In this document: positions 1-16,176 of the stretch, one piece after another
How positions within the stretch are numbered: the stretch's first letter is position 1
How the letters are laid out: each line of letters starts with the position of its first letter
Source of the DNA: Bacteroidota bacterium
Lineage (GTDB): Bacteria > Bacteroidota > Bacteroidia > B-17B0 > Aurantibacillaceae
Assembly: GCA_013298715.1 (NCBI GenBank)
Contig: JAAFIQ010000006.1
Span: 1-64,000 of the forward strand
Length of the DNA: 64,000 nucleotides
Direction: 5' to 3'
Made by a program: the position numbers and the translations under genes
The notes under the pieces: model-generated
Database searches by the model: none
The model's input: only the letters and a program-made list of their open reading frames with translations
What the model was told of the DNA's origin: nothing

Positions 1-2
1 AG

Positions 3-110
3 TATCTACAAAATTATTTAAACGAATTTGTGTATAAATTAAATCGAAGATATTTTAAAGATGCTATGTTTGATAGATTAACAGTCGCTTCAGTTTTTAA
101 TTATGGGTAA
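3..110 (+). mobile_element. 3' end of an IS1595/ISXO2-type transposase (cut by window edge)
   Basis: The frame is open from the first bases and ends at TAA 108-110, giving the last 35 residues of a protein. The residues contain an LNEFVYKLNRR stretch followed by FDRL, which matches the C-terminal end of ISXO2-like (IS1595 family) DDE transposases, where a YL-EF-xxFNRR segment is typical. The rest of the gene and the left inverted repeat lie outside the window, so it cannot be said whether the element is intact. Recognition is from family memory and the short length limits confidence. Confidence 0.65.
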
Positions 111-120
111 GATTACGGAC

Positions 121-140
121 AATCAAAATCTATTTTGATT
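121..140. other. Hairpin just after the transposase
   Basis: AATCAAAA (121-128) and TTTTGATT (133-140) form a perfect 8-bp stem with a 4-nt loop, 10 bases after the transposase stop. No clear T-tract follows. It could be a weak transcription stop or part of the right end of the insertion sequence; the element's terminal repeat cannot be defined without the other end. Confidence 0.35.
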
Positions 141-216
141 ATAAAGTATTTGAACGTATAATTTGGCTCAATTTTCAATTTAAAAAATCCGTAACTTTCG
201 CTTTCCATATAATATT

Positions 217-930
217 ATGACATCAAATCAAGAAGATAAAATACGTAATGCTTTTGCTCAAAAAGATTGGAGTGATATTAAAGCACAAAATAGTTGGCAA
301 ATTTTTAAAATAATGAGTGAGTTTGTTGAAGGGTTTGAAAAAATGAGTAAAATAGGGCCTTGTGTTTCTATTTTTGGTAGCGCCCGCACAAAGCCAGATA
401 ATAAATACTATCAAATGGCAGAAGAAATTGCTTTTAAATTAGTAAAAGAAGGGTATGGTATAATTTCTGGTGGAGGCCCAGGTATTATGGAAGCCGCTAA
501 CAAAGGGGCAAGAAAGGGTGGAGGCAAATCAGTTGGATTAAACATTGAACTACCATTCGAGCAAAAGCACAACGATTACATTGATACGGATAAGTGTATT
601 AATTTTGATTATTTTTTTGTTAGAAAAACAATCTTTTTAAAATACTCGCAAGGGTTTATTGGTATGCCAGGTGGCTTTGGTACTATTGATGAGTTGTTTG
701 AATCGTTAACCTTGGTGCAAACACATAAAATTGCCCAATTTCCGGTAGTTTTAGTTGGTATAGATTATTGGAGTGGATTAATTGATTGGATTAAAACAAC
801 CATGCTGGCACAAGAAAAAAATATTAGCGAAGCTGATTTAGATTTGTTTAAAATTGTAGATACTACCGATGACGCTGTAAAACACATTGTAGATTTTTAT
901 AGCAAATATTTATTGAAGCCAAATTTTTAA
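217..930 (+). CDS. LOG family nucleoside-monophosphate phosphoribohydrolase-like protein
   Basis: The 237-aa protein has the Rossmann-like fold of the LOG/TIGR00730 family, once called lysine decarboxylase-like. It shows the glycine-rich SGGGPGIMEA segment at about residues 84-93 and the signature PGGFGTIDE at 151-159, which carries the catalytic glutamate in characterised LOG enzymes. Characterised members release ribose 5-phosphate from AMP-type or cytokinin nucleotides; the natural bacterial substrate is often unknown. It is cytosolic with no signal peptide. A basic and helical N-terminal extension of about 45 residues precedes the core. The stop lies 2 bp before the acyltransferase start, so the two are probably co-transcribed. 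Confidence 0.88.
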   Translation: MTSNQEDKIRNAFAQKDWSDIKAQNSWQIFKIMSEFVEGFEKMSKIGPCVSIFGSARTKPDNKYYQMAEEIAFKLVKEGYGIISGGGPGIMEAANKGARKGGGKSVGLNIELPFEQKHNDYIDTDKCINFDYFFVRKTIFLKYSQGFIGMPGGFGTIDELFESLTLVQTHKIAQFPVVLVGIDYWSGLIDWIKTTMLAQEKNISEADLDLFKIVDTTDDAVKHIVDFYSKYLLKPNF

Positions 931-932
931 AA

Positions 933-1823
933 TTGACTTGGCTCTTTAAAATAACTACGTATCCGCTTCTCTATCTCCTTTCATTACTGCCATTTTGGAC
1001 ACTTCATAGTATTAGTAACTTTTTTTGCTTCGTAATTCAAAATGGAATTAAGTATCGAAAAAACGTAGTTATTTCCAATTTGAAAAATTCTTTCCCAACA
1101 AAAACTAACGAAGAAATTAATAAAATTGCAAACGAATTTTACAAACATTTTTGTGATTTAATTATTGAAACTATTAAACTGCTCAGTATTTCGGATGTAA
1201 AGTTTAAGCAAAGAATTTCGTTTACAACTAATGCCACTCAACTTTTTAATTACTATCAGGATAAGAAACAAAGTACTGTCGCAATTATGGGACACAACGG
1301 AAATTGGGAATGGAGCGCAATTGCAAATCAACTTTATTTTTCGCAATTGCTAACTGGTATTTATCATCCACTAAGTAATAAAAACATGAATGCATTGATT
1401 TACAAAATGCGCTACCGTGGAGGAAATTTTGTGCCAATGCAGCAGGCGCTTAGGAATTTAATTGAGTTGAAACAAAAAGAAATTTCAACCACAATAGGTT
1501 TAATTGCTGATCAAACATCGCCACCAGAAAATAGTTATTGGACTACTTTTTTAAACCAAGATACACCTGTGTTTAATGGACCTGAGAAAATTGCCCGCAA
1601 ATTTAATTACCCTGTTTTATTTATTTCAGTAAAAAAAATTGCACGAAGTAAATACATTATTGATGCTGAATTATTAACTGAAACACCAAACCAATTAAAA
1701 GAAGGGGAGCTCTCTGAACTCCACACAAAAAAATTAGAAGCGCTTATACATGAGCAACCTGCATATTGGTTATGGAGTCACAAACGCTGGAAACACAGCT
1801 ACAAGCGACCTAAAATTCAGTAA
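933..1823 (+). CDS. Lysophospholipid/lipid A acyltransferase (LpxL/HtrB family)
   Basis: The 296-aa protein resembles the HtrB/LpxL acyltransferases that add a secondary acyl chain to lipid A on the inner membrane. An N-terminal hydrophobic segment (residues 9-35) anchors it. The catalytic H-X4-E/D motif is visible as HNGNWE with His121 and Glu126. A second conserved region around ADQTSP (about residues 190-197) and FNGPEKIARK follows. The start is TTG, 2 bp after the upstream stop; no ATG lies nearby that would keep the membrane segment. The 3' end overlaps tsaD tail to tail by 14 bp. Which acyl chain or lipid it uses cannot be told. Confidence 0.88.
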   Translation: MTWLFKITTYPLLYLLSLLPFWTLHSISNFFCFVIQNGIKYRKNVVISNLKNSFPTKTNEEINKIANEFYKHFCDLIIETIKLLSISDVKFKQRISFTTNATQLFNYYQDKKQSTVAIMGHNGNWEWSAIANQLYFSQLLTGIYHPLSNKNMNALIYKMRYRGGNFVPMQQALRNLIELKQKEISTTIGLIADQTSPPENSYWTTFLNQDTPVFNGPEKIARKFNYPVLFISVKKIARSKYIIDAELLTETPNQLKEGELSELHTKKLEALIHEQPAYWLWSHKRWKHSYKRPKIQ

Positions 1824-2844
1824 CGCTTAATCTTACTTGAGGCGTTAGGTTAAAATCGCTTAGTTTGTTTTCTAATAATTTATAGTACGCTGTAATGCCT
1901 ATCATTGCTGCATTATCGGTGCAATACTCAAATTTGGGAATGTAATAATTTACATTAAGTCTTTCACATAAATGTTTTACTTGAAGTCGCAATTCGCTAT
2001 TAGCGCTTACGCCTCCTGCAATGGCAAAGTATTTTATACCGTATTTTTTTATAGCAATTTCGGCATTTTTTAAAAGCACTGTTACCAAATGTTTTTGATA
2101 TGACGCACAAATATCATTTAAATTCTCATTAATGAAATTTTCATTTTTTTGAACTTCTTTATTAATGAAATATAAAAACGAAGTTTTTATTCCACTAAAG
2201 CTATAATTTAATCCTTCTAACTTACTTTCGGCAAATTTATATTTTGTAAAGTCACCATCCCTTGCAAATTTATCAATCAAAGGTCCTCCAGGATATTCTA
2301 AACCAATAATTTTTGCCGCTTTATCAAACGCCTCGCCAACGGCATCATCTTGGGTTTCACCAATAATTTCAAAATCTAAATAATTTTTTACTAAAACCAA
2401 TTGTGTGTGTCCGCCACTAACTGTTAAGCAAATAAACGGAAAATGAGGTGCGCCAGTTTTATTAGCATCATCAATAAAATGTGCTAAAATATGACCTTGC
2501 ATGTGGTTTACGCCAATTAAAGGAATACTTAACGCTAAGGCTAATGATTTCGCAAAACTAATACCTACTAGTAAACTACCCATTAGGCCAGGTCCTTTGG
2601 TAACACTAATTGCTGTAAGCTCATTTAATTTTACTTCTGCCAAAGTTAAGGCTTCATTTACAACAGGCACTATGTTTTTTTGGTGATCTCTGCTAGCTAA
2701 TTCTGGCACAACGCCGCCATACTTTTTGTGAATGAGTTGATTTGCTGTAACGTTACTCAATACTTTTGTGTTTGCTAATACCGCGCACGAAGTATCATCA
2801 CAACTACTTTCAATTGCTAAGATTATCTTGGTGGTATTTTTCAT
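1810..2844 (-). CDS. tsaD: tRNA N6-adenosine threonylcarbamoyltransferase TsaD
   Basis: TsaD transfers the threonylcarbamoyl group to A37 of ANN-decoding tRNAs to make t6A, working with TsaB, TsaE and TsaC in the cytosol. The 344-aa length is normal. Seen in the sequence are the N-terminal IESSCDDT, the metal-binding HMQGHILAH motif, SGGHTQL, and the C-terminal GGVSAN and CTDNAAM motifs that bind nucleotide and metal. It is transcribed away from tamB, a common Bacteroidota arrangement, with a 45-bp intergenic space. The partner genes tsaB/E/C are not in this window. Confidence 0.97.
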   Translation of the reverse strand: MKNTTKIILAIESSCDDTSCAVLANTKVLSNVTANQLIHKKYGGVVPELASRDHQKNIVPVVNEALTLAEVKLNELTAISVTKGPGLMGSLLVGISFAKSLALALSIPLIGVNHMQGHILAHFIDDANKTGAPHFPFICLTVSGGHTQLVLVKNYLDFEIIGETQDDAVGEAFDKAAKIIGLEYPGGPLIDKFARDGDFTKYKFAESKLEGLNYSFSGIKTSFLYFINKEVQKNENFINENLNDICASYQKHLVTVLLKNAEIAIKKYGIKYFAIAGGVSANSELRLQVKHLCERLNVNYYIPKFEYCTDNAAMIGITAYYKLLENKLSDFNLTPQVRLSVTEF

Positions 2845-2889
2845 TTTTTTTAAGATTTAAATTAGGTTTAAACTCTTATATTTAATGCA

Positions 2890-5800
2890 ATGCGAATAAT
2901 AGGTAAAATTACAAGATTCTTACTTAAAACCATAGGGATTTTATTCCTAATTGTCGTATTTGCATTAATAGGCTTATATTTCGCAATTCAATCGCATAGT
3001 TTTCAAACGTATTTAGCAAAACGCGCTAGCGATTATTTAAGCAATGAGTTAAATACTAAAATTTCAATCGATAAAATTAAAATTGATTTTTTTTCTAACG
3101 CCAAAATTGAAAAATTATTGGTATTTGATTTGTATAATGATACACTAATTTTTGCAAATTTAAACGTTGATATCAAGGAGTTAAATTACGAGGCGCAACG
3201 CGTGAGACTAAAATCAATTAATTTAGAAAATACAACAGCAAAAATTATTAATTACAAGGATGAGAAAGATTTGAATTTTGATTTTATCATTAATTATTTC
3301 GATAACGGAAAAGTTACACGAAAAACCAAAATTGATAAAAAGTGGGACATCGATTTTGGAGATGTGAATTTGAAAAACTTATCCTTTGTATACAAGAACC
3401 TAAACGATACGCAACTTGTAAACCAAAACATGAATTTTAGTAACTTGTGTTTTACCAATATTAATGGAAAGTTTAGTAACATAAAGTTGGATGCCGATGT
3501 TACTCAAATGCAAATACAAAATTTCAGTGCAAAAGAACAATGCGGTTTTGAGCTGAATAATTTAACAGCAATTACCAAAGTTAGTAGCGAAGAATTATTT
3601 TTAAGCAATTTGTATTTAAAAACGCCGCAATCCCTGCTAAAAGGTAGAATAGAATTTTATTACAATGAATGGAAAGATTATGCAGAGTTTATAGATAAAA
3701 TAAAAATAAATTCTGAGTTAAAAGATAGCACAAAGGTAAATTTTAAAGATGTAGCCTATTTCACCGAAACGCTAAATTGTTTTGATAAAGAAGTGCAATT
3801 AAACGGGCTAATAGATGGTTTTGTAAGTGATTTGAATTTGGAAAAGTTTAATTTAACACTTGGCAAACACACCTGTTTTAAAGGGGATTTAAGACTAACA
3901 GGATTACCAGTTTTTAAAACAACCTATTTAAAATTTAATACAACCCAGCTTTCAACTAGTTTTTCAGATTTAAGTGATTTTCCAAACTATCCTTTTTGTG
4001 CCAATAAAAAATTAGAGTTGCCATCTCAGTTAAAAAGCCTGGGCATTCTTAACTACGTAGGAAAGTTTGATGGCTTTATTAATAATTTTAAATCGGTTGG
4101 CATCTTAAACACAGCATTAGGCAAGGTTACTACAGATGTTGGTATAAAAATAGGTAACGAAAGCAAAGATTTTACATACGAAGGAAAAATTAATACGTAT
4201 AATTTTAATGTTGGCGCTCTGGTTGGCATGAGAGAATTATCAAACGTTTCTTTAAATACAAACGTAAAAGGTAAAGGTCTTGATTTAGATAACTTGAATA
4301 CGGTTTTAGATGGCGATTTGTTAACTGCTACATACAACGGTTACACGTATAAAAATATTAAGTTAAATGGCGCGTTTAAAGATAAGTTGTTTAAAGGCGT
4401 CGTAAAAAGTAACGATCCTAATGCAAATTTTGATTTTAATGGAAACATAAATTTTAAAAATAAAGTTCCTGAAATGGATTTTATTTCGAGTGTTAATAAT
4501 TTGAATTTATCCGTTCTTAATTTATCCGAAAAAACCAAGGCAGATAGTGGAAGTATCTCAACCCAAATGCTCATTAATTTAAAAGGTGATAACTTAAACA
4601 ACATGAGTGGGCAAATAAATTTTGATGATACCAAATACAAAACAAAAACTAAGTCTTACAGACTTTCAACCTTAAATCTAGATTTAGATCAATCCAAACC
4701 TGACAAGAGCATTAACCTGACTTCTGCTTATTTAAACGCTTCTGCAAAAGGAAAATTTAATATTTTAAATCTTCAACCAGCTTTCGAGAATTTTTTATAC
4801 AAGTATTATCCAACTTTTTTTAGTAAACCGCTTGGCGATAAAACTTTTACCGATGAAGTTAAATTTAACGCCACCATTAAAAATTTTAAAACAATAAAAG
4901 AATTGTTTTTGCCTGAACTCATGTTGGCTCCAAAAACAATGCTAGATGGTAGTTTTAACGCCTCAAAAAATTCGTTTGGGCTAACTTTCATTAGCGACTC
5001 AGTTAATTATAATGGAATTAAAATACAAAAATTAAACTTATTATCTAAAGAAGAAGCAGATAAAGTAGTAGCTACAATTATTGGAGAACGATTGAATTTA
5101 ACGGATAGCATTGGAATTGATAATTTTAATTTATGTATTAACTCGCTTGATAAAAACACCAAATACGATTTTGAATGGGACAGTAAAAGAATTGTAAATA
5201 ATAATAAAGGCGAATTGGCCGGAATGGTTATTTTCAACAATCAATCTATATATTTACAACACGACACTATAAGTTTAACTTACCGTGATAGCACTTGGAA
5301 CTTAATTAAGAGTAATCCATCAGTAATAAATTTAGATGGAAACTACTTTATAAATCCATTATTGTTTTCCAATAATCAACAACTCATAGGTTTATCTGGT
5401 ACAATAAGTGAAAAGCCCAGCGATAAATTAATCATCAATACAAAGAATGTTTTACTCAATCAATTTAATCCTATTTTGAGTCCATATAAACTTAACCTTG
5501 ATGGTATTTTAACAGGCAATGTGGCATTAGATATGGAGAATAAACAAATTATAGTAGATGCCGATTTAGAATTTGCGAAATTAAAAATCAATAATAATTT
5601 ATTAGGCTTGCTTAAGTTAAAATCTGAATTTAATCCAATTAAAAAAGCAATTTATTTAGATGGCTCAACATCACTTGGTTTGCCCGATATGTTTGGTAAC
5701 GAAACAAAAAACATTTCGTTTAACGGGAATTATTATTTAGATAACCGAGATGAAAGTATTGATATAGATTTTGGTGCCAGCCCTGCCAATCTTAAATTAT

Positions 5801-7386
5801 TAAATCCTTATTTAGAAGGAATAATGAAAATAGAAAATGCATATGTTTTTGGTAAAGGAAAAATGCATGGAAATCCATCAAACATAAAAATTGATGGTAA
5901 ATTAAAATTAACAGATAGCGAAATTAAAATTGATTACACCAATGTAACCTATAAAATAAAAGGCGATGTGGAAATAGAACCAGATTTAATTCGTTTTATT
6001 GATTTAGAAATGAGTGAAAAAAGTTTAGGCCCCAAAGCTACACCGCAAGGAACAATAAATGGCGTACTTTTTCATAATAATTTTAGTAACATGAAACTGG
6101 ATTATGACGTGAACTATAGGAATATGATGGTGATGAATACTACAGAAAAAGATAATTCCACCTTTTATGGTAAAATGTATGGCACCGGCAGATTTGGGAT
6201 TTATGGTTTTTTAAACTTGTTGCACATGAGTGTGGATTACACCTCAGAAAAAAATAGTAAGTTTATTATGCCACTTGATGGACCAAGCGAGGTTGGCGAT
6301 AATGATTTTATCCGCTTTGTTAAACGAGATACTGTTAAAGTTGAGGAAGATAAAATATCGAGTTTTGATTTAGAAATGAATGTAAAGGCCACGCCAGATT
6401 TGAATACAAAAATTATTTTAGATAAAGTTACAGGTGATGGTTTAAATGCACAAGGCTATGGTGATTTGAAATTGAATATAAGTACACTTGGGAAATTTGA
6501 TATGGTTGGCGATTACTTAATTACCAATGGAAATTATATTTTTACTTTAGAGAATGTGATTAACAAAAAATTTGATATAGAAGCAGGAAGTAATATTTCC
6601 TGGAGTGGCGACCCACTAAATGCAGAGATTAACGTAACAACAAGTTATAAGCAGCGTGCAATTGTAGCACCACTTTTACCAGAATCGACAGACAAAGGCA
6701 GGTACGCAGTAGATTGTAAATTATTAATTACAAATAAATTATTTAAACCAATTATCAATTTTAAAATTGATTTTCCAACGTTAGATGTTACAAGTAAATC
6801 CAGAATTAATAATGTATTGAGTGACGAAGTAGAATTAAACCGCCAAGTGTTTTCGTTTTTATTGTTTAGAAGTTTTGTTACACCGGCCGTATATAGCAGC
6901 GGAGGAGGCGTAACAACAGCTGGTAGCGCAGCAGCATCTACCGGTAGTGAAATGTTGAGTAACCGATTAAGTAATTTTTTAAATGGCTACGTTGGTAATT
7001 TAACTGGCTTAAGCGATTTGCAAGTAGGTGTAAATTACAGAACAGGTGCAGCCAATAGTGGTCAGGCAGTGGATTTGGCCTTAAGTAAACAATTTTTAAA
7101 CAATAGAATTTCGGTTGATGGAAACTTTGGCGTTAATGGCGGAAACACTCAATCGCGCAATGGCTTAATTGGAGATGTAAATATTGATTATAAAATTACT
7201 GAAGACGGACGTTATAGAGTAAGAGGGTTTAATCGCACAAATGATAATACACAAATTACAACACTTGGCGGCCCTTACACCCAAGGTATTGGTATTTTTT
7301 ATAGGCGTGAATTTGAAAATTTTGAAGATTTAATGAAGAGAAAAAAAGCCGAAAAAGAAAAGAAAGAAAATCAGGAAAAGAAATAA
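2890..7386 (+). CDS. tamB: TamB-like translocation/assembly module protein (DUF490)
   Basis: This 1498-aa protein has one N-terminal signal anchor (about residues 9-32, IGILFLIVVFALIGLY) followed by a very long region of repeated short beta-strand segments, the pattern of AsmA/TamB bridge proteins. The C-terminal ~350 residues carry the DUF490 signature region, including LNAEINVTTSYK, FPTLD and a conserved segment before a short basic tail. TamB-like proteins span the periplasm and are implicated in phospholipid transport or outer-membrane protein assembly. A short Ser/Gly/Ala-rich stretch (near 6895-6950) interrupts the C-terminal domain. No tamA/BamA homologue is adjacent; tsaD is divergent. 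Confidence 0.9.
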   Translation: MRIIGKITRFLLKTIGILFLIVVFALIGLYFAIQSHSFQTYLAKRASDYLSNELNTKISIDKIKIDFFSNAKIEKLLVFDLYNDTLIFANLNVDIKELNYEAQRVRLKSINLENTTAKIINYKDEKDLNFDFIINYFDNGKVTRKTKIDKKWDIDFGDVNLKNLSFVYKNLNDTQLVNQNMNFSNLCFTNINGKFSNIKLDADVTQMQIQNFSAKEQCGFELNNLTAITKVSSEELFLSNLYLKTPQSLLKGRIEFYYNEWKDYAEFIDKIKINSELKDSTKVNFKDVAYFTETLNCFDKEVQLNGLIDGFVSDLNLEKFNLTLGKHTCFKGDLRLTGLPVFKTTYLKFNTTQLSTSFSDLSDFPNYPFCANKKLELPSQLKSLGILNYVGKFDGFINNFKSVGILNTALGKVTTDVGIKIGNESKDFTYEGKINTYNFNVGALVGMRELSNVSLNTNVKGKGLDLDNLNTVLDGDLLTATYNGYTYKNIKLNGAFKDKLFKGVVKSNDPNANFDFNGNINFKNKVPEMDFISSVNNLNLSVLNLSEKTKADSGSISTQMLINLKGDNLNNMSGQINFDDTKYKTKTKSYRLSTLNLDLDQSKPDKSINLTSAYLNASAKGKFNILNLQPAFENFLYKYYPTFFSKPLGDKTFTDEVKFNATIKNFKTIKELFLPELMLAPKTMLDGSFNASKNSFGLTFISDSVNYNGIKIQKLNLLSKEEADKVVATIIGERLNLTDSIGIDNFNLCINSLDKNTKYDFEWDSKRIVNNNKGELAGMVIFNNQSIYLQHDTISLTYRDSTWNLIKSNPSVINLDGNYFINPLLFSNNQQLIGLSGTISEKPSDKLIINTKNVLLNQFNPILSPYKLNLDGILTGNVALDMENKQIIVDADLEFAKLKINNNLLGLLKLKSEFNPIKKAIYLDGSTSLGLPDMFGNETKNISFNGNYYLDNRDESIDIDFGASPANLKLLNPYLEGIMKIENAYVFGKGKMHGNPSNIKIDGKLKLTDSEIKIDYTNVTYKIKGDVEIEPDLIRFIDLEMSEKSLGPKATPQGTINGVLFHNNFSNMKLDYDVNYRNMMVMNTTEKDNSTFYGKMYGTGRFGIYGFLNLLHMSVDYTSEKNSKFIMPLDGPSEVGDNDFIRFVKRDTVKVEEDKISSFDLEMNVKATPDLNTKIILDKVTGDGLNAQGYGDLKLNISTLGKFDMVGDYLITNGNYIFTLENVINKKFDIEAGSNISWSGDPLNAEINVTTSYKQRAIVAPLLPESTDKGRYAVDCKLLITNKLFKPIINFKIDFPTLDVTSKSRINNVLSDEVELNRQVFSFLLFRSFVTPAVYSSGGGVTTAGSAAASTGSEMLSNRLSNFLNGYVGNLTGLSDLQVGVNYRTGAANSGQAVDLALSKQFLNNRISVDGNFGVNGGNTQSRNGLIGDVNIDYKITEDGRYRVRGFNRTNDNTQITTLGGPYTQGIGIFYRREFENFEDLMKRKKAEKEKKENQEKK

Positions 7387-7439
7387 TAATTGCGCATGCA
7401 ACTCATTTTTAATCTTACTTTTAACTACTCAAAAACTAA

Positions 7440-9380
7440 ATGCTATACCATAAATTGAACTCACCGCTCTATAATAATTTAGGCATATTAGTTTTACTAT
7501 TTTTTTTAGTAAATCCATTTTGCTCAGCTCAAGATACGACTTACCTCAAAGAAATTCCTGTTATTGCCATTAAAAATGAATTTGCTGCCATAGGAAAAAA
7601 AGTTCAGACTATTGATAGCACCACAAAAAAGCTTTTTATACAAAGTAATTTAGGAGATTTATTAGCGGCAAATACTCCTATTCATATTAAAAACTATGGC
7701 AATGGTGCTATTAGTACCACCAGTTTTAGAGGTGGTAGCGCCAATCAAACTGCAATTTTATGGAACGGATTTAATTTAAAAAATGCCATGCTAGGGCATA
7801 TTGATTTGAGTTTGTTGCCTGCAAACTTATTTAACGACGTTAGTATTGAATATGGCGGCGGGTCATCTACTTGGGGAAGCGATGCTGTTGGAGGAAGTGT
7901 TCATTTAAAAACGGGTACAGCATTAAAGAATAATGGATGGAAGGTAATTGCGAATCCTAACTGGGCAAGCTTTGGAAACTTTAATACAAATTTATGTGCA
8001 GAATTAAAGCATAAAAAATTTTCTTCCAGAAGCTATTTCTATTCTAATGCAAACCAAAATAATTTCAAATACAAAGATACTTTAAATAAAGAGAATCCTA
8101 TTCAAACTGCTACAAATGCTTTTTACGCGCACAACGGAATTCTGCAAACTGTTAGTTATCAATTTAATAATTCAAATCAAATAAACGTAAATGCTTGGTA
8201 TCATAAAACTGATAGAAGGCTACCAAATTTTTTCACATCTCAAGAAAGCAAACGCTATCAGTTTGATAAATCATTACGACTCACAACCAATTACAACTAC
8301 ACAAAACGGAGGTACTTTCTAATTTTTAAAAATGCCTTTTTTAATGATAAACTAAACTACAACGATAGTGCAATTGCACTGTATAGTAAAAGCTCTGTAA
8401 ACACATTTATTTCTGAGCTCGAAAACTTTTACCAATACCATCCAAAAAATCAATTACAAGTAGGGCTAAATTTTACTGAAAATAAAGCTACGGCAAGCAA
8501 TTACAGCGAACAACAAAATAAATTAACTCGTTTTGCAATGAATCTTGCCAATAAAACGAATTTACTTAATTCTAATTTAATAATTTATACTTCGCTCAGG
8601 GTTGAGAAAATTAATTTTTCATCAACACCTATTACAGGAAATGTCAGTGCTAATTATAAAATTTGCAATTGGCTGAAGGCAAAAGTTAATTTTGCAAAAG
8701 TATACAGGCAACCAACCTTAAATGAATTGTTTTGGCAGCCTGGTGGCAATCCTAATATCAATCCGGAGCAAGGTTATAGCCAAGAAGGCGACTTAGAATT
8801 TGACAAACAGTTTAACAAAATTAAAGTTACTATATCGGGTTCAATATATAATAGAAACATTATGAATTGGATTTTATGGACACCGGGCGCAAGCGGCAAT
8901 CCAAGCCCAATAAATTTACAAGAAGTGTGGAGTAGGGGAACAGAAAGCGTTTGGAAGTTAAGTTATCACAAAACAAATTATAATTTTGGACTTACTTTAA
9001 ATACAGGTTATTGTTTATCAACTATTGAAAAAGATTTACAAGAAAACAATTCAACCTTAAATCGGCAATTAATTTATACGCCGCGTTACACAATTAATTC
9101 AAATTTATTTTTTCATAGTGATTATTTTTCGTTGATGGTATTTCATCACTATGTTGGGTATAGATTTACAACTTCAGATAATTTAAATTGGCTAAACCCA
9201 TACCATCTCTTATCTGCTAGGCTGGCAACCAATTTTAATAAAGAAAAGGATTTTGTCAATTTGTTTTTGGCAGTAAATAATCTCCTTAATAATAATTATG
9301 TAATTGTTGCAAATAAACCAATGCCTTTGCGTAATTTTGAGATTGGAATTACAATACATTTTAAAAGAATAAAAACATAA
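7440..9380 (+). CDS. TonB-dependent outer-membrane receptor, BtuB-like
   Basis: The 646-aa protein has a cleavable signal peptide ending around CSAQ (residues 28-31), a plug domain (about 50-160, with RGGSANQTAILWNGF and GSDAVGGSV segments) and a 22-strand-type barrel ending in an aromatic-rich strand. The size matches BtuB-like vitamin B12 receptors and not the ~1000-aa SusC family. The next two genes encode a DUF4465 protein and a BtuG-like propeller lipoprotein, which in other Bacteroidota accompany cobalamin receptors, so corrinoid uptake across the outer membrane is the best inference. The start lies 53 bp after tamB with no room for a cobalamin riboswitch. No FecR or SusD partner is present. 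Confidence 0.85.
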   Translation: MLYHKLNSPLYNNLGILVLLFFLVNPFCSAQDTTYLKEIPVIAIKNEFAAIGKKVQTIDSTTKKLFIQSNLGDLLAANTPIHIKNYGNGAISTTSFRGGSANQTAILWNGFNLKNAMLGHIDLSLLPANLFNDVSIEYGGGSSTWGSDAVGGSVHLKTGTALKNNGWKVIANPNWASFGNFNTNLCAELKHKKFSSRSYFYSNANQNNFKYKDTLNKENPIQTATNAFYAHNGILQTVSYQFNNSNQINVNAWYHKTDRRLPNFFTSQESKRYQFDKSLRLTTNYNYTKRRYFLIFKNAFFNDKLNYNDSAIALYSKSSVNTFISELENFYQYHPKNQLQVGLNFTENKATASNYSEQQNKLTRFAMNLANKTNLLNSNLIIYTSLRVEKINFSSTPITGNVSANYKICNWLKAKVNFAKVYRQPTLNELFWQPGGNPNINPEQGYSQEGDLEFDKQFNKIKVTISGSIYNRNIMNWILWTPGASGNPSPINLQEVWSRGTESVWKLSYHKTNYNFGLTLNTGYCLSTIEKDLQENNSTLNRQLIYTPRYTINSNLFFHSDYFSLMVFHHYVGYRFTTSDNLNWLNPYHLLSARLATNFNKEKDFVNLFLAVNNLLNNNYVIVANKPMPLRNFEIGITIHFKRIKT

Positions 9381-9383
9381 ATA

Positions 9384-10334
9384 ATGAAACAATTTTTTTT
9401 GCTTTTCTGTGCCCTAAGTTTAATTTCTAGAGGTCAAACTATTTGTACTTTTGAAACATTCACGCTAGCCCCAAATTCTTTTTATCAAAGCACACTTAGT
9501 ACAAATTTTAATAGTAATAATTTAGAATTTAGTTATGACTGGGACAATACAAATAGTTTTTGGAGCGGAGGGTTTTCATATACCAATAAACGCGATTCAA
9601 GTAATGGTACTTTTTCAAATTTGTATGGTTGTCGTCCATTCAGTGGTGTGAGTAATTCAAATATCTACGCAACAGCTCAGGATAAATCTGTAATAAAAAT
9701 TTTAACGCCTAATACTACTTTAAATGGAATGTTTATTACAAATACTACTTATGCATTTAAAACTATAAAAAATGGCAATCAGTTTGCTAAGAAGTTTGGC
9801 GGAGTTTCAGGAAACGACCCTGATTATTTTAAAATAACGGCCAAAGGGTATAAAAATGGTGCTATGAAAAATGATAGCGCCGTATTTTATTTAGCAGATT
9901 ATAGAAATTCTAACAACGCATTGGATTATGTTGTTGAAAATTGGCAATGGTTTAACACCGAAAATTTAGGAGTTATTGATAGCGTGAAATTTTTTATGTA
10001 TAGTAGTGATGTCGGACAATTTGGTATAAACACACCGTTGTTTTTTAGCGTGGATGATATTGCTGCAACACAAAGCTTTGTAGGTTTAAATGAAAATACT
10101 AGGAGTTTAAAATTTGATGTGTACCCAAATCCTTTCGCAACCTCGTTTAAATTAAAAACAAATAATGAAAATTTATTAGATTTAAAATTATACAGTGTTG
10201 ATGGGAAGTTAATTCATGAAACAAAATTTCTTTCAGAAACACAAATAAATACTGAATTTTTCTCTGCAGGTTGTTATTTTCTTACAATCAGCGGTAATGG
10301 CGTTTTTAAATCACAAAAAATTATTAAACAATAA
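9384..10334 (+). CDS. DUF4465 protein with T9SS type A sorting domain (BtuH-like)
   Basis: The 316-aa protein has a signal peptide (to about residue 18, SRGQ), a DUF4465 domain (about 20-230) with diagnostic pieces such as FAKKFGGVSGNDPDYFK, FYLADYR and GINTPLFFSVDD, and a C-terminal T9SS sorting domain (about 245-316) beginning DVYPNPF and ending with a KSQKIIKQ-type tail. From memory, DUF4465 proteins related to BtuH of gut Bacteroides bind cobamides at the cell surface. Here export would use T9SS instead of a lipid anchor. It follows the receptor by 3 bp and abuts the next gene, so the three are almost certainly co-transcribed. The cobalamin ligand is inferred from family and context. Confidence 0.85.
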   Translation: MKQFFLLFCALSLISRGQTICTFETFTLAPNSFYQSTLSTNFNSNNLEFSYDWDNTNSFWSGGFSYTNKRDSSNGTFSNLYGCRPFSGVSNSNIYATAQDKSVIKILTPNTTLNGMFITNTTYAFKTIKNGNQFAKKFGGVSGNDPDYFKITAKGYKNGAMKNDSAVFYLADYRNSNNALDYVVENWQWFNTENLGVIDSVKFFMYSSDVGQFGINTPLFFSVDDIAATQSFVGLNENTRSLKFDVYPNPFATSFKLKTNNENLLDLKLYSVDGKLIHETKFLSETQINTEFFSAGCYFLTISGNGVFKSQKIIKQ

Positions 10335-11372
10335 ATGAAAGGTTTTGGAACTATAATTTTATTAAGTTTTATTTTTTTTACAGCCTGTATAAAAGACAAA
10401 CCAAATGTTGTAGAAAAAGGAAACATAACCCTTAGTAGCGCAAAAAAAGTTTATGTCATCAATGAAGGGATGTGGACTAATAATCAGGCAGAAGTGAGTC
10501 TTTACGATCCGCAAACACAGCAGGTAATTCAAGAGTATTACAAAACTCAAAACCCCAACCAGATTTTAGGAGATGTTTTGCAAAGTATTAATTTTTTTAA
10601 TTCGAATTATTATTGTGTGGTTAATAACTCGTCTAAAATTATAATTTGTAATAACGAATTTAAAAAAATCGGTCAAATAAACGGTTTAACATCGCCTAGG
10701 TATATTCTACCAATCAGCAACGCTAAAGCCTATGTTAGCGATTTTGAAGCCAACCAAATTCATGTAATTGATTTAACACAAAATGCAAAAGTTGGCAGTA
10801 TAAGAACATACACTTGGACAGAACAAATGGTTATGATCTATAATAAAGCCTTTGTTTGTAGTCCTGTAACTAACTATATGTATGTTATCAATACCATTAC
10901 CAATCAAATAACAGATAGTATTAACGTTGGAATTGGGTCTTACGGTTTAGTTTTGGATAAAAATGATAAACTCTGGGTACTAAGTGTCGGTAAAAAACAA
11001 GATAACATTCAAGGAAGGCTCACACGAATCGATCCTTTAAGTTTACAAATAGAAAATAGTTTTACTTTTCCTCAAAACCAAAGCCCAGGTAATTTATGTT
11101 TAAACAAAACAAAAGATACCTTGTATTACCTAAACAGAGGAGTTTGTCAGTTCCCAATTCAAAATGCAAGTTTGCCTAATGCACCACTTATTAATGCTGG
11201 ATCAAAAAACTTCTACGGTATTGGCATTAACCCAAACACTTACCAAATTTATGCTGCCGATGCTTTAACATATGACCAAAAAGCTAATATTTATATTTAT
11301 AGTGTAACAGGTGTTGAACAAAGTACGTTTAAGGCCTCCTACATCCCTAATGGATTTTATTTCGAGCAATAG
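10335..11372 (+). CDS. YncE/DUF5074-like beta-propeller lipoprotein (BtuG-like)
   Basis: The 345-aa protein begins directly after the previous stop. It has a lipoprotein signal with lipobox FFTAC, Cys at residue 18, so it is probably outer-membrane anchored. The mature part has repeated propeller blades of the YncE type, for example KVYVINEG near residue 36, YVIN..TNQITDSINVG near 182 and later related blades. BtuG of Bacteroides is such a seven-bladed lipoprotein that binds cobalamin very tightly and hands it to BtuB; the receptor-DUF4465-propeller order here suggests the same role. Its stop TAG overlaps the likely start of the glycosyltransferase. Confidence 0.82.
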   Translation: MKGFGTIILLSFIFFTACIKDKPNVVEKGNITLSSAKKVYVINEGMWTNNQAEVSLYDPQTQQVIQEYYKTQNPNQILGDVLQSINFFNSNYYCVVNNSSKIIICNNEFKKIGQINGLTSPRYILPISNAKAYVSDFEANQIHVIDLTQNAKVGSIRTYTWTEQMVMIYNKAFVCSPVTNYMYVINTITNQITDSINVGIGSYGLVLDKNDKLWVLSVGKKQDNIQGRLTRIDPLSLQIENSFTFPQNQSPGNLCLNKTKDTLYYLNRGVCQFPIQNASLPNAPLINAGSKNFYGIGINPNTYQIYAADALTYDQKANIYIYSVTGVEQSTFKASYIPNGFYFEQ

Positions 11373-12499
11373 AAAAACACTTAAATATTATTTCGTTTGA
11401 TATTCCTTTTCCTGCAAATTATGGTGGGGTTATTGATGTTTTTTACAAGTTGGTGGCCTTGCATAATTTAGGGGTTAAAATTCATTTGCATTGTTTTAAA
11501 TACGGTAATAGAGTGGAGGCGAAGGAGCTAGAACATCTTTGCGAAAAAGTTTACTACTACAAACGTGATATTTCATTTTTAAATCATTTTTCAATTTTAC
11601 CATTTACAGTTAAAAGCAGAATTAGCAAAGAGTTAAAACAAAACTTATTAAAGAATAATTATCCAATTTTATTTGAAGTATTGCACACGTGCTTTTTGTT
11701 GAAAGATGATAGTTTTAAAAACAGATTAAAAATTTACCGCCACAGTAATCTTGAACATATTTATTACAAAGGCTTAGCCAAGGTTGAGAAAAATTATTTA
11801 AAGCGAGTTTACTTAAACATTGAAGCAATAAAGCTAAAACGTTTCGAGAAAATTATTCAGCGTGCTGATTTAATTTTTGCAGTTAATAAAAAAGATTCAA
11901 GTTATTTTAAAGAAAATTATCCCGCTGTAAACACAATTTATTTACCAAGTTTTCACAGCAATAATGAACTTACAATTAATGCAGATATGGGCGAATACGC
12001 TTTGTATCATGGTAATTTGAGTATACCAGAAAACTACGAAGCCGTTGAGTGGATTTTGAATAACATTGCTACTAAAGTGAATTACAACATTATTATTGCT
12101 GGATTAAATGCACCACCATTTTTAAAAAATAAAATAAATACGATTAAACATTGTAAATTAATTGATAGTCCTAGTGAAGCTGAAATGAATAAGTTGATTG
12201 AAGAGGCTCAACTGCATCTCTTATATACTGCACAAGACACAGGTTTAAAACTAAAACTACTAAATGTATTGTTTAAAGGAAGATTTATTTTAACGAATAG
12301 CGCTATGTTGTCTGGTACCGATTTAAGTGAAAACAACGGGCTGATTATTTGTAATTCTCATCAGGAATACAACGACAAAATAAATACACATTCAAAACAA
12401 ATGTTTACTGAGGCGCACAAGGTTGAGCGAGAAAAGTTGGTAAAAAATTTTAAGAATACCGTTGGTGCTGAAATAATTTTGAAGGAGATTTCTCATTGA
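11369..12499 (+). CDS. Glycosyltransferase (GT4-like), start codon uncertain
   Basis: The protein looks like a GT-B glycosyltransferase for surface or secreted glycans. The first ordinary start codon (TTG, 11450) would remove the first beta strand and glycine loop. The frame is open further up, back to a stop at 11348-11350. It encodes HLNIISFDIPFPANYGG, the typical N-terminus of this family. No ATG, GTG or TTG exists there, leaving ATA at 11369 (overlapping the upstream TAG) or ATT at 11354 or 11387. The C-terminal half has the donor-site region (YHGNLSIPENYEAVEW, then LKLKLLNVLFKG), though the usual E-x7-E is not clear. Either a non-canonical start or a mutated start is possible. Confidence 0.75.
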   Translation: MEKHLNIISFDIPFPANYGGVIDVFYKLVALHNLGVKIHLHCFKYGNRVEAKELEHLCEKVYYYKRDISFLNHFSILPFTVKSRISKELKQNLLKNNYPILFEVLHTCFLLKDDSFKNRLKIYRHSNLEHIYYKGLAKVEKNYLKRVYLNIEAIKLKRFEKIIQRADLIFAVNKKDSSYFKENYPAVNTIYLPSFHSNNELTINADMGEYALYHGNLSIPENYEAVEWILNNIATKVNYNIIIAGLNAPPFLKNKINTIKHCKLIDSPSEAEMNKLIEEAQLHLLYTAQDTGLKLKLLNVLFKGRFILTNSAMLSGTDLSENNGLIICNSHQEYNDKINTHSKQMFTEAHKVEREKLVKNFKNTVGAEIILKEISH

Positions 12500-12588
12500 T
12501 AAATTACAAAATGTTAATAATATACTTTTACCAAAAGATTATTTAGATTATATTTAGCTTTTGAAAATTTAGTTATTATCAAAAAAAT

Positions 12589-13512
12589 ATGAGTCATTTA
12601 AGTGTTAATCATCTTTTAGGAATAAAGTACATTACCAAAAACGATATTGAATTAATTTTAAACACGGCTCAAAATTTTAAAGAAGTAATTAATCGACCAA
12701 TCAAAAAAGTTCCTTCGCTCCGAGATATAACAGTTGCCAATTTATTTTTTGAGAATTCTACTCGTACACGTTTATCTTTTGAATTAGCTCAAAAACGTTT
12801 GAGTGCTGATGTTGTAAATTTTTCGGCATCCAGCTCATCGGTAAAAAAAGGAGAAACTTTAGTTGATACCGTTAACAACATTTTGGCCATGAAGGTTGAT
12901 ATGGTGGTAATGCGTCATGCAAGCCCAGGTGCTGCGGTATTCTTAGCAAAAAAAGTAAATGCAAAAATTGTAAATGCAGGCGATGGTGCACATGAACATC
13001 CCACACAAGCTTTGTTGGATGCGTATTCCATTCAAGAGAAATTAGGAACACTCAAGGATAAAAAAATTGTAATTGTTGGCGATATTTTGCACTCGCGTGT
13101 TGCGCTTTCAAATATTTTTTGTTTGCAAAAATTAGGTGCTAAAGTAAAAGTGTGCGGCCCTCAAACGCTTATACCACGTTATATTACAAGCCTTGGAGTA
13201 GAAGTAGAATTAGATTTGCGAAAAGCATTAGAATGGTGCGATGTTGCAAATATGCTGCGCATACAACTAGAACGACAGGATATAAAATTTTTCCCAAGTC
13301 TGCGCGAATACAGCATGCTTTACGGTTTAAACAAGGAACTTTTAGATAGTTTATCAAAAAAAATAATTATCATGCATCCAGGCCCAATTAACAGAGGTGT
13401 TGAAATAACTAGTGATGTAGCAGATAGTAATCAATCCATAATTTTAGATCAGGTAGAAAACGGAGTAGCGGTGCGCATGGCGGTAATGTTTTTATTAGCA
13501 GGAAAGCAATAA
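12589..13512 (+). CDS. pyrB: Aspartate carbamoyltransferase catalytic subunit
   Basis: PyrB condenses carbamoyl phosphate with aspartate to N-carbamoylaspartate in pyrimidine synthesis. The 307-aa length is standard. The carbamoyl phosphate site STRTR is at residues 57-61, followed by the SSSVKKGE loop, HPTQ in HEHPTQALLD, and a C-terminal HPGPINRG that shapes the aspartate site. Other pyr genes and the regulatory chain pyrI are not adjacent, so it is either unregulated by PyrI or pyrI lies elsewhere. An 88-bp AT-rich leader precedes it. Its stop and the next start share an A (TAATG), implying translational coupling. Confidence 0.96.
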   Translation: MSHLSVNHLLGIKYITKNDIELILNTAQNFKEVINRPIKKVPSLRDITVANLFFENSTRTRLSFELAQKRLSADVVNFSASSSSVKKGETLVDTVNNILAMKVDMVVMRHASPGAAVFLAKKVNAKIVNAGDGAHEHPTQALLDAYSIQEKLGTLKDKKIVIVGDILHSRVALSNIFCLQKLGAKVKVCGPQTLIPRYITSLGVEVELDLRKALEWCDVANMLRIQLERQDIKFFPSLREYSMLYGLNKELLDSLSKKIIIMHPGPINRGVEITSDVADSNQSIILDQVENGVAVRMAVMFLLAGKQ

Positions 13513-14072
13513 TGAAAAAGATAGTTTATAGTTTATTTCTGTGTTTTATCTGCCTGACAGGTTTCGGACAAAAACTTATTACCAAAAAATACTTAAATAC
13601 CGAAATTAATGTAAGCTACCAAATACCCAATAGTTGGGATGTTTTGCCAAAAGAAGAAAATAACAAAACAGAGTTTGCCGCGTCATGTAACGACCAAAAA
13701 GAAAACATCATTTACAAAAATTGTTTTAGTGATGTTGTATTTTATATGGAAAAATATAACCTAGATTTGAACGCTACTTTAGAAAAAAAGGGCTTCACTT
13801 TAAAAAATGATTCTGTGTTTTATAAGGATACAAAAGGAAAATTAAATAAAGTGCAATACACGCAACGCAATAATTACAAAGGAATTTTTTATGAAGCCAA
13901 AACAAAAATAAATTGTACAAGCCTACCCAAAAAAATGCAAACACAGGGTAGGGTAGATTATTTATTTTTTAATTTACGCGGTGGTAAAAATACAGTTGTT
14001 ATTTATACCACAGGCAAGGCATTAGATATTAGAGTGCGGAATTTGATTTTAGAAAGTTTTAAGTTTGTTTAG
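13512..14072 (+). CDS. Small secreted protein of unknown function
   Basis: The 186-aa protein starts in a TAATG overlap with pyrB. It has a clear signal peptide (MKKIVYSLFLCFICLTGFGQ, cleavage near residue 20) and no lipobox or T9SS tail, so it is probably periplasmic or released. The mature part has three cysteines near SCNDQKENIIYKNC and INC, and a C-terminal half with alternating hydrophobic residues ending in IRVRNLILESFKF, resembling the small alpha/beta domains of PsbP-like periplasmic proteins. I do not recognise the family with certainty. The coupling to pyrB is unexplained and may only reflect tight packing. Confidence 0.75.
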   Translation: MKKIVYSLFLCFICLTGFGQKLITKKYLNTEINVSYQIPNSWDVLPKEENNKTEFAASCNDQKENIIYKNCFSDVVFYMEKYNLDLNATLEKKGFTLKNDSVFYKDTKGKLNKVQYTQRNNYKGIFYEAKTKINCTSLPKKMQTQGRVDYLFFNLRGGKNTVVIYTTGKALDIRVRNLILESFKFV

Positions 14073-14179
14073 TGTTTCTTATAGTTTTTAGCGTCTTCAT
14101 GATTTAATACTCTAAAAAGTTCATAGTGGGTAATAATACAAAATCATTTTATTAACTTAGTGCAATTGTGTTTAATTTT

Positions 14180-15622
14180 ATGTTTCGCAAACTAATTTTG
14201 GTTAGGTTATTTATAATAGCACCTTTTTTTTGTTTTGCTCAAAATTCTAGTTTTGTAGCTCAAATTAACAAATTACCCGATTAGCTTCAACAAAATTTTA
14301 TTTCAAAACAGGTTGAAGAGTTATACAAAAAAGATTCTGTTTTTGCTCAGAGAGAGAGAAATAATGCGATTTCTGTTTTTAAAAATAACAAACGGATTTA
14401 CGCAGCGCTTCTGAGTGCACAAGCAACCTTTCTTTTTAATAATGAAAATTGCACCTAAGCCTTAGAATATGAAAAAAAAGTGCTCGAAATTTATGAAGCA
14501 TCGCATGATTTTGAAAACGAGTTACTTTCAATTAAAAGAATCACAAGAATTTACACCGCTTTAAACAAATCTAACGAAGCAATTTCGTTATTAATAAAGA
14601 AACTAAATGAACAACAAGGAAACAAAGAAAAAGAGTGTGTGCTATTAGAAAGAATTGGTATTACTTTTAAAGAAATTAAAAATTCCGACAAGGCATTAAT
14701 TTATTTGTTGCAAGCCGAAGAGAAATCCAAAGAGGTGGTAAAGCCCAGTTCAAGATTTAACCTTACGCTTTTAACCATATATAAAAATATAGGAGTGTTG
14801 TATAGGAATAAGGACGATTTCGATAAAGCCATTTATTATTTTGACAAAGGCTATGACCTAGCCGAAACTACAAAAAACGTTAGATACAAAGGTATCATCT
14901 TAAATAGTTTGGCAATATTATATAGAGAGAAAAAGGAATATTTAAAGGCAATTGAAGCCTTTGAAGAATTGATAAAGTTAAAACTTGAAGTTGAAAATTC
15001 GGCGGGGGTTTCTAATTCTTATAGCAATTTAGCGGCACTCTATCTCGAGATAAAAAACTATTCAAAAGCGGAGAAGAATTACCAACTTGCTTATACAATT
15101 GCTGTGCAATCTAAACAGAAAAAGGCAATTTTAGAGGTTTGTGAAGGCTTTTACCGATTTTACGATAAATTAAATAAGCCAAGTTTGGCCTATCCTTATT
15201 TAAAAAGAGCATTTATTTTAAAAGACAGTATTTACAGCAGCAGCATTGCCGAAGAAAGCGCCAAGTTAGAAACTATTTATAATACCGAAAAAAAGCAAAA
15301 GGAAATTGAAATAGGTAAAATAAAAAATCAACAACTCGAAAAAGATGTAAAATCAAAGGACAGAGAACGCAATATTTTTATAGGTAGCGCTCTTTTATTG
15401 GGTTTGTTTTTAATTTTGTCAGTACGTAGTTTTTTACAAAAGAAAAAAGTAAACAAGCAATTTGAAGAAAAAAATAGTTTAATCAACAAACAAAAATTAT
15501 TGGTAGAAGAAAAACAAAAAGAAGTTTTAGACAGTATACGTTATGCAAAAAAAATACAACAAGCCCTGCTTACCAGTGAAGGTTACATAAACAAAAATAT
15601 AAACCGTTTATTGAAAAAATGA
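14180..15622 (+). pseudogene. TPR-repeat membrane protein gene broken by two in-frame stop codons
   Basis: A single frame runs from ATG 14180 to the stop at 15622 (481 codons) but is interrupted by TAG at 14282-14284 and TAA at 14456-14458. The first part encodes a signal peptide ending CFAQ. The rest, best preserved from 14480 on, has tetratricopeptide repeats (AIYYFDKGYDLAE, KAIEAFEELIKLK, KAEKNYQLAY), a membrane segment (IFIGSALLLGLFLIL), and a coiled coil ending DSIRYAKKIQQALL, as in Bacteroidota TPR signalling proteins. Both stops could be single C-to-T changes of CAG and CAA. No frameshift is seen, so decay looks recent. A downstream in-frame start might still make a fragment lacking its export signal. 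Confidence 0.8.
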
Positions 15623-16176
15623 ATCCTCGTTTTTTTACTAGCGTTTAAACTATAAATTACACCTGCTATTAATCCAAAAAGTCCACCTAAATAGCTAAAA
15701 TTATGCATTGAGCCAACAGCTATAAAATTTTTCGTATCAATAAGATTATTTGGCAACCACCAACTAACCCCAGTTTCTGCTAAATAAATTTTACCAATAG
15801 CAAATCCAATTAGTCCAGTTACAAGAGCAACTAACATAGTTATTAAAATTGATTTTAATGTAGAAACTAAAAACAGTTTACTATTCTTTTGCTTCAAATT
15901 TACTAGCCCTAATATTAATCCGATTGGCAAGCCCATCCACCAAGTAGCCAAAAAGCCAACAATAGCCACTTGTATTCTTGGATTAGGAAATATAGCTTCA
16001 TTACCAACCTCCGCAAGTCTAAATTGATAGAATTTAAATTTCGTGTAATATTCAGGAGAAAGTGAGTAAGTTATTTGATCGTGCAATACCCCATAAAGCC
16101 CAGCAATTAAAGGTACTAGAGAAATAAGAAATGTGAGCGTTAAGAATTTTTTCATTTTAGTTTGATTGTTTTTCAT
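15583..16176 (-). CDS. Integral membrane protein of unknown function
   Basis: The 197-aa protein has about four hydrophobic helices: an N-terminal signal-anchor-like segment (LTLTFLISLVPLIAGLYGV), then VAIVGFLATWWMGLPIGLILG, ILITMLVALVTGLIGFAIG and LGGLFGLIAGVIYSL. A soluble loop of about 45 residues follows the first helix. Translation may start at the ATG 21 bp further in (16155), which places the basic residues right before the first helix. Its 3' end overlaps the broken TPR gene by 40 bp on the opposite strand. I do not recognise a named family; similar small membrane proteins of unknown role are scattered in Bacteroidota. Confidence 0.6.
   Translation of the reverse strand: MKNNQTKMKKFLTLTFLISLVPLIAGLYGVLHDQITYSLSPEYYTKFKFYQFRLAEVGNEAIFPNPRIQVAIVGFLATWWMGLPIGLILGLVNLKQKNSKLFLVSTLKSILITMLVALVTGLIGFAIGKIYLAETGVSWWLPNNLIDTKNFIAVGSMHNFSYLGGLFGLIAGVIYSLNASKKTRIHFFNKRFIFLFM

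Follow-up and report, generated by a model that had tools for sequence, protein, structure and literature searches.

A predicted cobalamin-uptake operon with two delivery routes

How would cobalamin (vitamin B12) be captured and imported when one protein encoded beside its transporter carries a tail for the type IX secretion system (T9SS) and the other a lipobox? The question is raised by positions 7440 to 11372 of a 64,000-nucleotide stretch of contig JAAFIQ010000006.1 (positions 1 to 64,000; hereafter the window) from a Bacteroidota bacterium of the order B-17B0, family Aurantibacillaceae (assembly GCA_013298715.1). An earlier note on this DNA had proposed a cobalamin-uptake locus of three genes with almost no spacing, whose products reach the surface by different routes. 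The open reading frames are indeed separated by 3 bp and then 0 bp, all on the + strand, and sequence comparison supports both other proposals: all three proteins are nearest to structures from B12 systems, and the predicted tail and lipobox lie on the DUF4465 protein and the propeller, respectively. We consider it highly probable that this is a cobalamin-uptake operon with a BtuB transporter, a BtuG lid, and a T9SS-delivered BtuJ, detached from its riboswitch. The features of the operon are as follows.

7440..9380, + strand: btuB-type TonB-dependent receptor (646 aa; PF07715, PF00593; PDB 8p98/8p97, 5e-52)
9384..10334, + strand: btuJ-type DUF4465 protein (316 aa; PF14717, 1.2e-37; PDB 9qpm, 3e-21, and BtuJ1 9fct, 8e-21; HI loop NTPLFF)
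10119..10331, + strand: T9SS type A C-terminal sorting domain of the DUF4465 protein (TIGR04183, 53 bits; PF18962)
10335..11372, + strand: btuG-type propeller, predicted lipoprotein (345 aa; PDB BtuG/YncE chains; lipobox-like FTAC, then IKDKP)

The receptor matched the Pfam domains PF07715 (4e-11) and PF00593 (7e-22). Among its 12 solved matches in the PDB, the ten best were B12 receptors or BtuB homologues, led by the Bacteroides BtuB chains 8p98/8p97, and the last two were colicin I receptors; the best E. coli BtuB-type chain scored 1.4e-7. The receptor is thus closest to Bacteroides BtuB, not to the receptors for another class of ligand that the earlier note had named as grounds for abandoning its proposal.

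The assignment of the middle protein to DUF4465 was confirmed by PF14717, at 130 bits against a cut-off of 25, and its top PDB relatives are DUF4465 chains. The accompanying label "BtuH-like" proved a misnomer: the structurally solved DUF4465-B12 proteins are BtuJ1 and BtuJ2, and BtuH2 (7BIZ) is a separate protein. A BtuH identity was rejected, as 7biz is absent from the ten PDB matches of the window protein at E ≤ 1. The tail matched PF18962 (1.8e-10) and TIGR04183 (4.6e-13), the latter over model positions 1-72 of 72, which constitutes a full sorting domain. The genome also encodes SprA (2347 bits) and PorU (1252 bits), so that a full type A sorting domain and both machinery genes mark the protein as a predicted T9SS cargo. 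At least 150 proteins of the genome carry T9SS tails, all 150 scored candidates out of 212 having matched.

The propeller gave no match in the Pfam search; its first nine PDB matches are BtuG/YncE chains, with values between 6e-46 and 2e-44. A lipobox-like FTAC was read by eye at its N-terminus. Among the BtuG proteins of the order longer than 300 aa (n = 65), a cysteine falls within residues 11-40 in 64, and 44 fit a strict lipobox pattern. A looser pattern was found in 52 of 71 BtuG proteins, in 3 of 87 DUF4465 proteins, and in 10 of 25 proteins of a second T9SS-tailed, BtuH-like family described below; nine of these last ten matches lie at residues 41-47, past the signal peptide, and one lies inside it. 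We also observed that in many BtuG proteins, including that of the window (10335-10420) and its relatives, C-(V/I)-K-D-K-P or a similar motif directly follows the lipobox; perhaps it directs export to the surface or forms a linker in contact with BtuB.

Predicted mixed delivery is the rule within the order

We then examined how widely this arrangement occurs. DUF4465 is present in 80 of 87 genomes of the order, and in 11 of 392 genomes of a phylum sample that includes the window's own genome (9 above the cut-off). The order set of 83 DUF4465 proteins was drawn from 80 regions, the window, and a second copy in the same genome. A T9SS tail was detected in 82 of the 83, the lone exception (L105) running off its contig, and in none of 67 BtuG proteins, four of them cut by contig ends. 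Of 18 related-locus matches, 14 match the C-terminal part of the query and only L003-L006 cover nearly all of it; L003 and L004 duplicate L051 and L073, and L005 and L006 stand outside the 83. With these four added, the tail is found in 86 of 87 DUF4465 proteins and in 0 of 71 BtuG proteins, of which four are cut at contig ends.

By these predicted signals, mixed delivery is the rule within the order, and riboswitch-btuB-btuJ-(btuH-like)-btuG is its usual operon. One relative (L085, 6482-8619) has two T9SS-tailed DUF4465 genes in tandem between btuB and btuG. Elsewhere in the phylum, three of eight DUF4465 proteins (L128-L135) carry the tail, two of them with btuB directly upstream, and the other five appear lipoprotein-like by eye; a ninth region (L136), which matched none of the profiles, and the sub-cut-off genomes G098 and G394 were set aside. 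The suggestion that the mixed arrangement may be a distinct form of the system was only partly right, since it is usual in the order and T9SS-tailed DUF4465 proteins are already in print. What does set this copy apart, its lack of a riboswitch and its position behind tamB, had been missed, as had the phenylalanine in the HI loop of its clade.

The HI-loop tyrosine is replaced by phenylalanine

Published accounts describe the HI-loop tyrosine of DUF4465 proteins as universal (PMC12751083) or as 97% conserved and critical for B12 contact (PMC13398666). At the position of BtuJ1 Tyr245, the window protein has Phe220 (NTPLFF) and its paralogue in the same genome also has phenylalanine (NTPAFF). Of the 83 order proteins, 66 have Phe here and the other 17 have Tyr; among the eight proteins from elsewhere in the phylum it is Tyr in seven and Phe in one, which is T9SS-tailed. 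The clade of this order does not show the near-invariance given in print.

The remaining HI-loop residues are kept (N in 78, T in 84, and P in all 85 of 85 proteins). Counting along the 9fct alignment, the DE-loop tyrosine (BtuJ1 Tyr146) corresponds to Tyr123 of the window protein, a position with Tyr in 74 order proteins, Phe in seven, Leu in one, and a gap in one. Y148, in a variable DPDYF, was considered as the Tyr146 equivalent and rejected, as that alignment places Tyr146 at the conserved Tyr123. Either phenylalanine works equally well in the HI loop, or the DUF4465 proteins of this order bind differently.

The window operon lacks a riboswitch and follows tamB

Next, we considered regulation. 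Across the order loci, a cobalamin riboswitch lies 300 bp or less upstream of 63 of 74 btuB genes. Ten of the remaining 11 start no more than 252 bp from a contig end and were not assessable; the eleventh is the window, which makes it the sole riboswitch-less operon among 64 assessable btuB operons. No RF00174 match was found in the window at the gathering score, nor in positions 1-12600 at E ≤ 10, and the idea of a riboswitch hidden upstream of or within tamB was rejected on this empty search. What the window lacks relative to a riboswitch-controlled BtuB-BtuG transporter is a regulatory feature, not a structural one. Neighboring features are listed below.

2890..7386, + strand: tamB, upstream neighbor (PF04357, 3.6e-56)
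7387..7439, no strand: tamB-btuB spacer of 53 bp, too short for a cobalamin riboswitch
11450..12499, + strand: gene linked to the operon, with weak sub-cut-off similarity to glycosyltransferase family 4 (true start probably further 5ʹ)

The btuB gene starts 53 bp past tamB, an adjacency seen only in this copy. In the 11 relatives compared (out of 40 genomes with a match; the L127 contig holds only ~620 bases past tamB), btuB is not beside tamB, and tamB keeps a divergent neighbor homologous to window positions 1810-2844. No clear conserved synteny was found around the operon except for the linked gene, a homologue of which occurs in 43 of 80 order regions, mostly 3ʹ of btuG. Promoter-like sites showed no excess over shuffled sequence (29 versus 27.3), and terminator-like sites numbered 5 versus 2.6. 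In a tree of 18 chosen riboswitches, the genome's two riboswitches clustered with those that in relatives stand before btuJ but no btuB (L026, L034, and L042) and were separated from the btuB type with a support of 0.998. Most simply read, the transporter operon would have relocated or been trimmed, losing its riboswitch. A caveat to any loss of control is B. thetaiotaomicron operon 4, which has no identifiable riboswitch and yet is B12-regulated (PMC12751083).

Other predicted B12 genes in the genome include a second T9SS-tailed family

Both riboswitches of the genome precede genes for T9SS-tailed proteins. On contig C1 (L024, 8412-10008), two genes come after the riboswitch, first one for a DUF5522/Cys-rich CWC protein and then the second T9SS-tailed DUF4465 gene; a DUF5522-DUF4465 pair also lies behind riboswitches in L034 and L042. 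On contig C44 (L025, 12020-12994, - strand), a T9SS-tailed BtuH-like gene has its likely ATG ~27 bp past the end of the riboswitch. Behind this gene come cobT (PF02277), cobS (PF02654), and a gene for a histidine phosphatase, which would be cobC judging by its place; a gene with a methylmalonyl-CoA mutase domain lies close by. In another genome (G025), the counterparts of these regulon genes form a single locus behind one riboswitch. The genome thus has B12 users, namely a MetH domain and the methylmalonyl-CoA mutase domain, and it also encodes one FecCD permease.

The BtuH-like family occurs in 23 of 80 order regions, in 21 of these between btuJ and btuG, and additionally in L005 and L025. 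Its tail was detected in 25 of 25 members with our own profile and in all 24 run against Pfam. An alignment of 24 of the 25 sequences (L035 left out) matched, in its N-terminal part, a 21-sequence profile of the BtuH domain at a probability of 92% (E 6e-7 in one comparison) over 49 columns, against 12% for DUF4465, 3% for BtuG, and 0.1% for the linked gene as controls; against a single BtuH sequence the same family profile gave 15%. BtuH itself (7biz, E 0.037) is the family's sole PDB match at E ≤ 5 outside the tail. Counting against homology to BtuH, 16 of 24 members show a weaker match to NF033170, a family of LIC_13355 lipoproteins, so the shared motif may extend beyond BtuH; the best value there is 1.4e-4, and the first member scores 20 bits where the cut-off is 120. 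On these profile comparisons, homology of the second family to the B12-binding domain of BtuH is likely. An asparagine invariant in the family's motif aligns by eye with the GNAF motif of BtuH, and we would guess that it is the published contact Asn399. The label "BtuL-like" was also tried for this family and rejected, since its profile reached a probability of 0.6% when compared with the protein that occupies the BtuL position in a Bacteroides-type locus.

Discussion

Our reading of the operon draws on the gene identities, the tail, the order-wide operon, the absent riboswitch, and the SprA and PorU genes, as predicted from sequence. From these we infer B12 binding, sorting fate, hand-off, and loss of regulation, as follows. 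BtuB would be the TonB-driven outer-membrane transporter, and BtuG a surface lipoprotein that covers it as a lid and delivers B12 into it. The BtuJ-type protein would capture B12 outside the cell, having crossed the outer membrane via the T9SS, with PorU probably cutting its tail; surface-attached or released, it could work on the cell surface or in the surrounding medium and would pass B12 to BtuG-BtuB. Lying behind tamB without a riboswitch, the operon would probably have escaped the usual repression by B12, whereas the genes for the second T9SS-tailed BtuJ and the T9SS-tailed BtuH-like protein, the latter with cobT and cobS, lie behind riboswitches elsewhere in the genome. More tentatively, this may amount to two-tier capture, in which BtuG is lipid-anchored on BtuB and the T9SS-delivered BtuJ and BtuH-like proteins serve as attached or released "cobalophores", their pocket reworked around the HI-loop phenylalanine, with the transporter uncoupled from B12 control and the other T9SS-delivered binders still under riboswitches.

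Several observations pull away from a cobalamin-uptake operon of this kind. Besides the HI-loop phenylalanine and the empty riboswitch search, the best NCBIfam model for the receptor, TonB-B12 (1.4e-22), reached only 80 bits against a cut-off of 599.7. Structure prediction for the DUF4465 protein gave a mean predicted local distance difference test score (pLDDT) of 30.0 from a single sequence and 43.9 from five; in the latter AlphaFold model the domain is mostly below 50 and the tail alone reaches 60-80, a quality too low for reading the pocket or recognizing the augmented beta-jellyroll fold of DUF4465/BtuJ proteins.

A receptor for an iron chelate, haem, or a sugar with incidental neighbors would account for its weak sub-cut-off matches to haemin, haemoglobin, and siderophore receptor models, but we regard this as very improbable given its solved relatives, the match of both partners to B12 binders, and the riboswitch before 63 of 64 assessable operons. 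It is unlikely, too, that the operon imports cobalamin with a DUF4465 protein that binds B12 weakly or prefers other corrinoids. Phenylalanine at a supposedly universal position in most order proteins speaks for this; however, the rest of the HI loop and the DE-loop tyrosine are kept, linkage to the riboswitch and btuB is retained, and eight published members bind B12. As to the missing riboswitch, an assembly error might have fused tamB to the btuB operon: none of the 11 relatives has the two side by side, and the operon flanks vary between genomes, so that synteny cannot confirm the join. We think this quite unlikely, since tamB and btuB are both complete open reading frames, G+C content is 27-34% throughout positions 1-16000, the genome has a completeness rating of 99.99%, and its two riboswitches fall into the group of the other locus type.

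Preferring the cobalamin-uptake operon with a T9SS-delivered BtuJ, we suggest that a B12-scavenging layer made of lipoproteins in gut Bacteroides is delivered by another secretion system throughout an order in which the transporter has stayed the same, and hence that the anchoring of the binders may be interchangeable. The order also offers a natural Tyr/Phe series for probing the DUF4465 pocket, and the window a natural riboswitch-less transporter for asking whether B12 uptake needs repression.

We take IPR026444 to be the T9SS domain and IPR013424 to be the PEP-CTERM domain. Of 824 DUF4465 proteins, 229 have the C-terminal extracellular targeting domain IPR026444, 88 have IPR013424, and 275 have lipoprotein signals, and the family was proposed to be mainly extracellular (PMC12751083). 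This count is at odds with the more than 70% predicted to be lipoproteins in PMC13398666. According to that paper, eight members bind B12, among them one of Fluviicola taffensis, and DUF4465 genes occur close to those for TonB barrels and propellers. DUF4465 proteins with a T9SS tail are thus already known, and ours is one more of the kind printed as 229 of 824. The domain pair in PMC12751083 is the same as in the window, and the portions of that paper used here give no operon, regulation, or loop residue for it. No report of a BtuB-BtuJ-BtuG operon with T9SS sorting was found in the open-access literature searched.

Among the closest known systems are the B. thetaiotaomicron BtuB-BtuG loci (PMC10404256; 8p97, 8p98, 8bmx, and 8blw), in which receptor, propeller lipoprotein, and DUF4465 protein are likewise encoded close together and BtuG, as the lid of BtuB, passes B12 into it. 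There the surface binders carry lipidation signals, and BtuJ acts on vesicles (PMC12751083), whereas in the window the DUF4465 protein ends in a T9SS tail, the genes run in the order B-J-G, and the riboswitch is missing. With BtuJ1/BtuJ2 (IPR027828; 9FCT and 9I2L) and D5EK51 (9HMU), the window protein shares its Pfam family, the DE-loop tyrosine, and a match of 8e-21 to 9FCT; it differs in having a T9SS tail in place of a lipobox and Phe in place of Tyr in the HI loop. BtuH (7BIZ), whose B12 domain is without a close structural relative in print, is the likely counterpart not of the window DUF4465 protein but of the second T9SS-tailed family outside the window, which matches its B12-binding domain over those 49 columns and differs from it in the T9SS tail and the sub-cut-off LIC_13355 matches.

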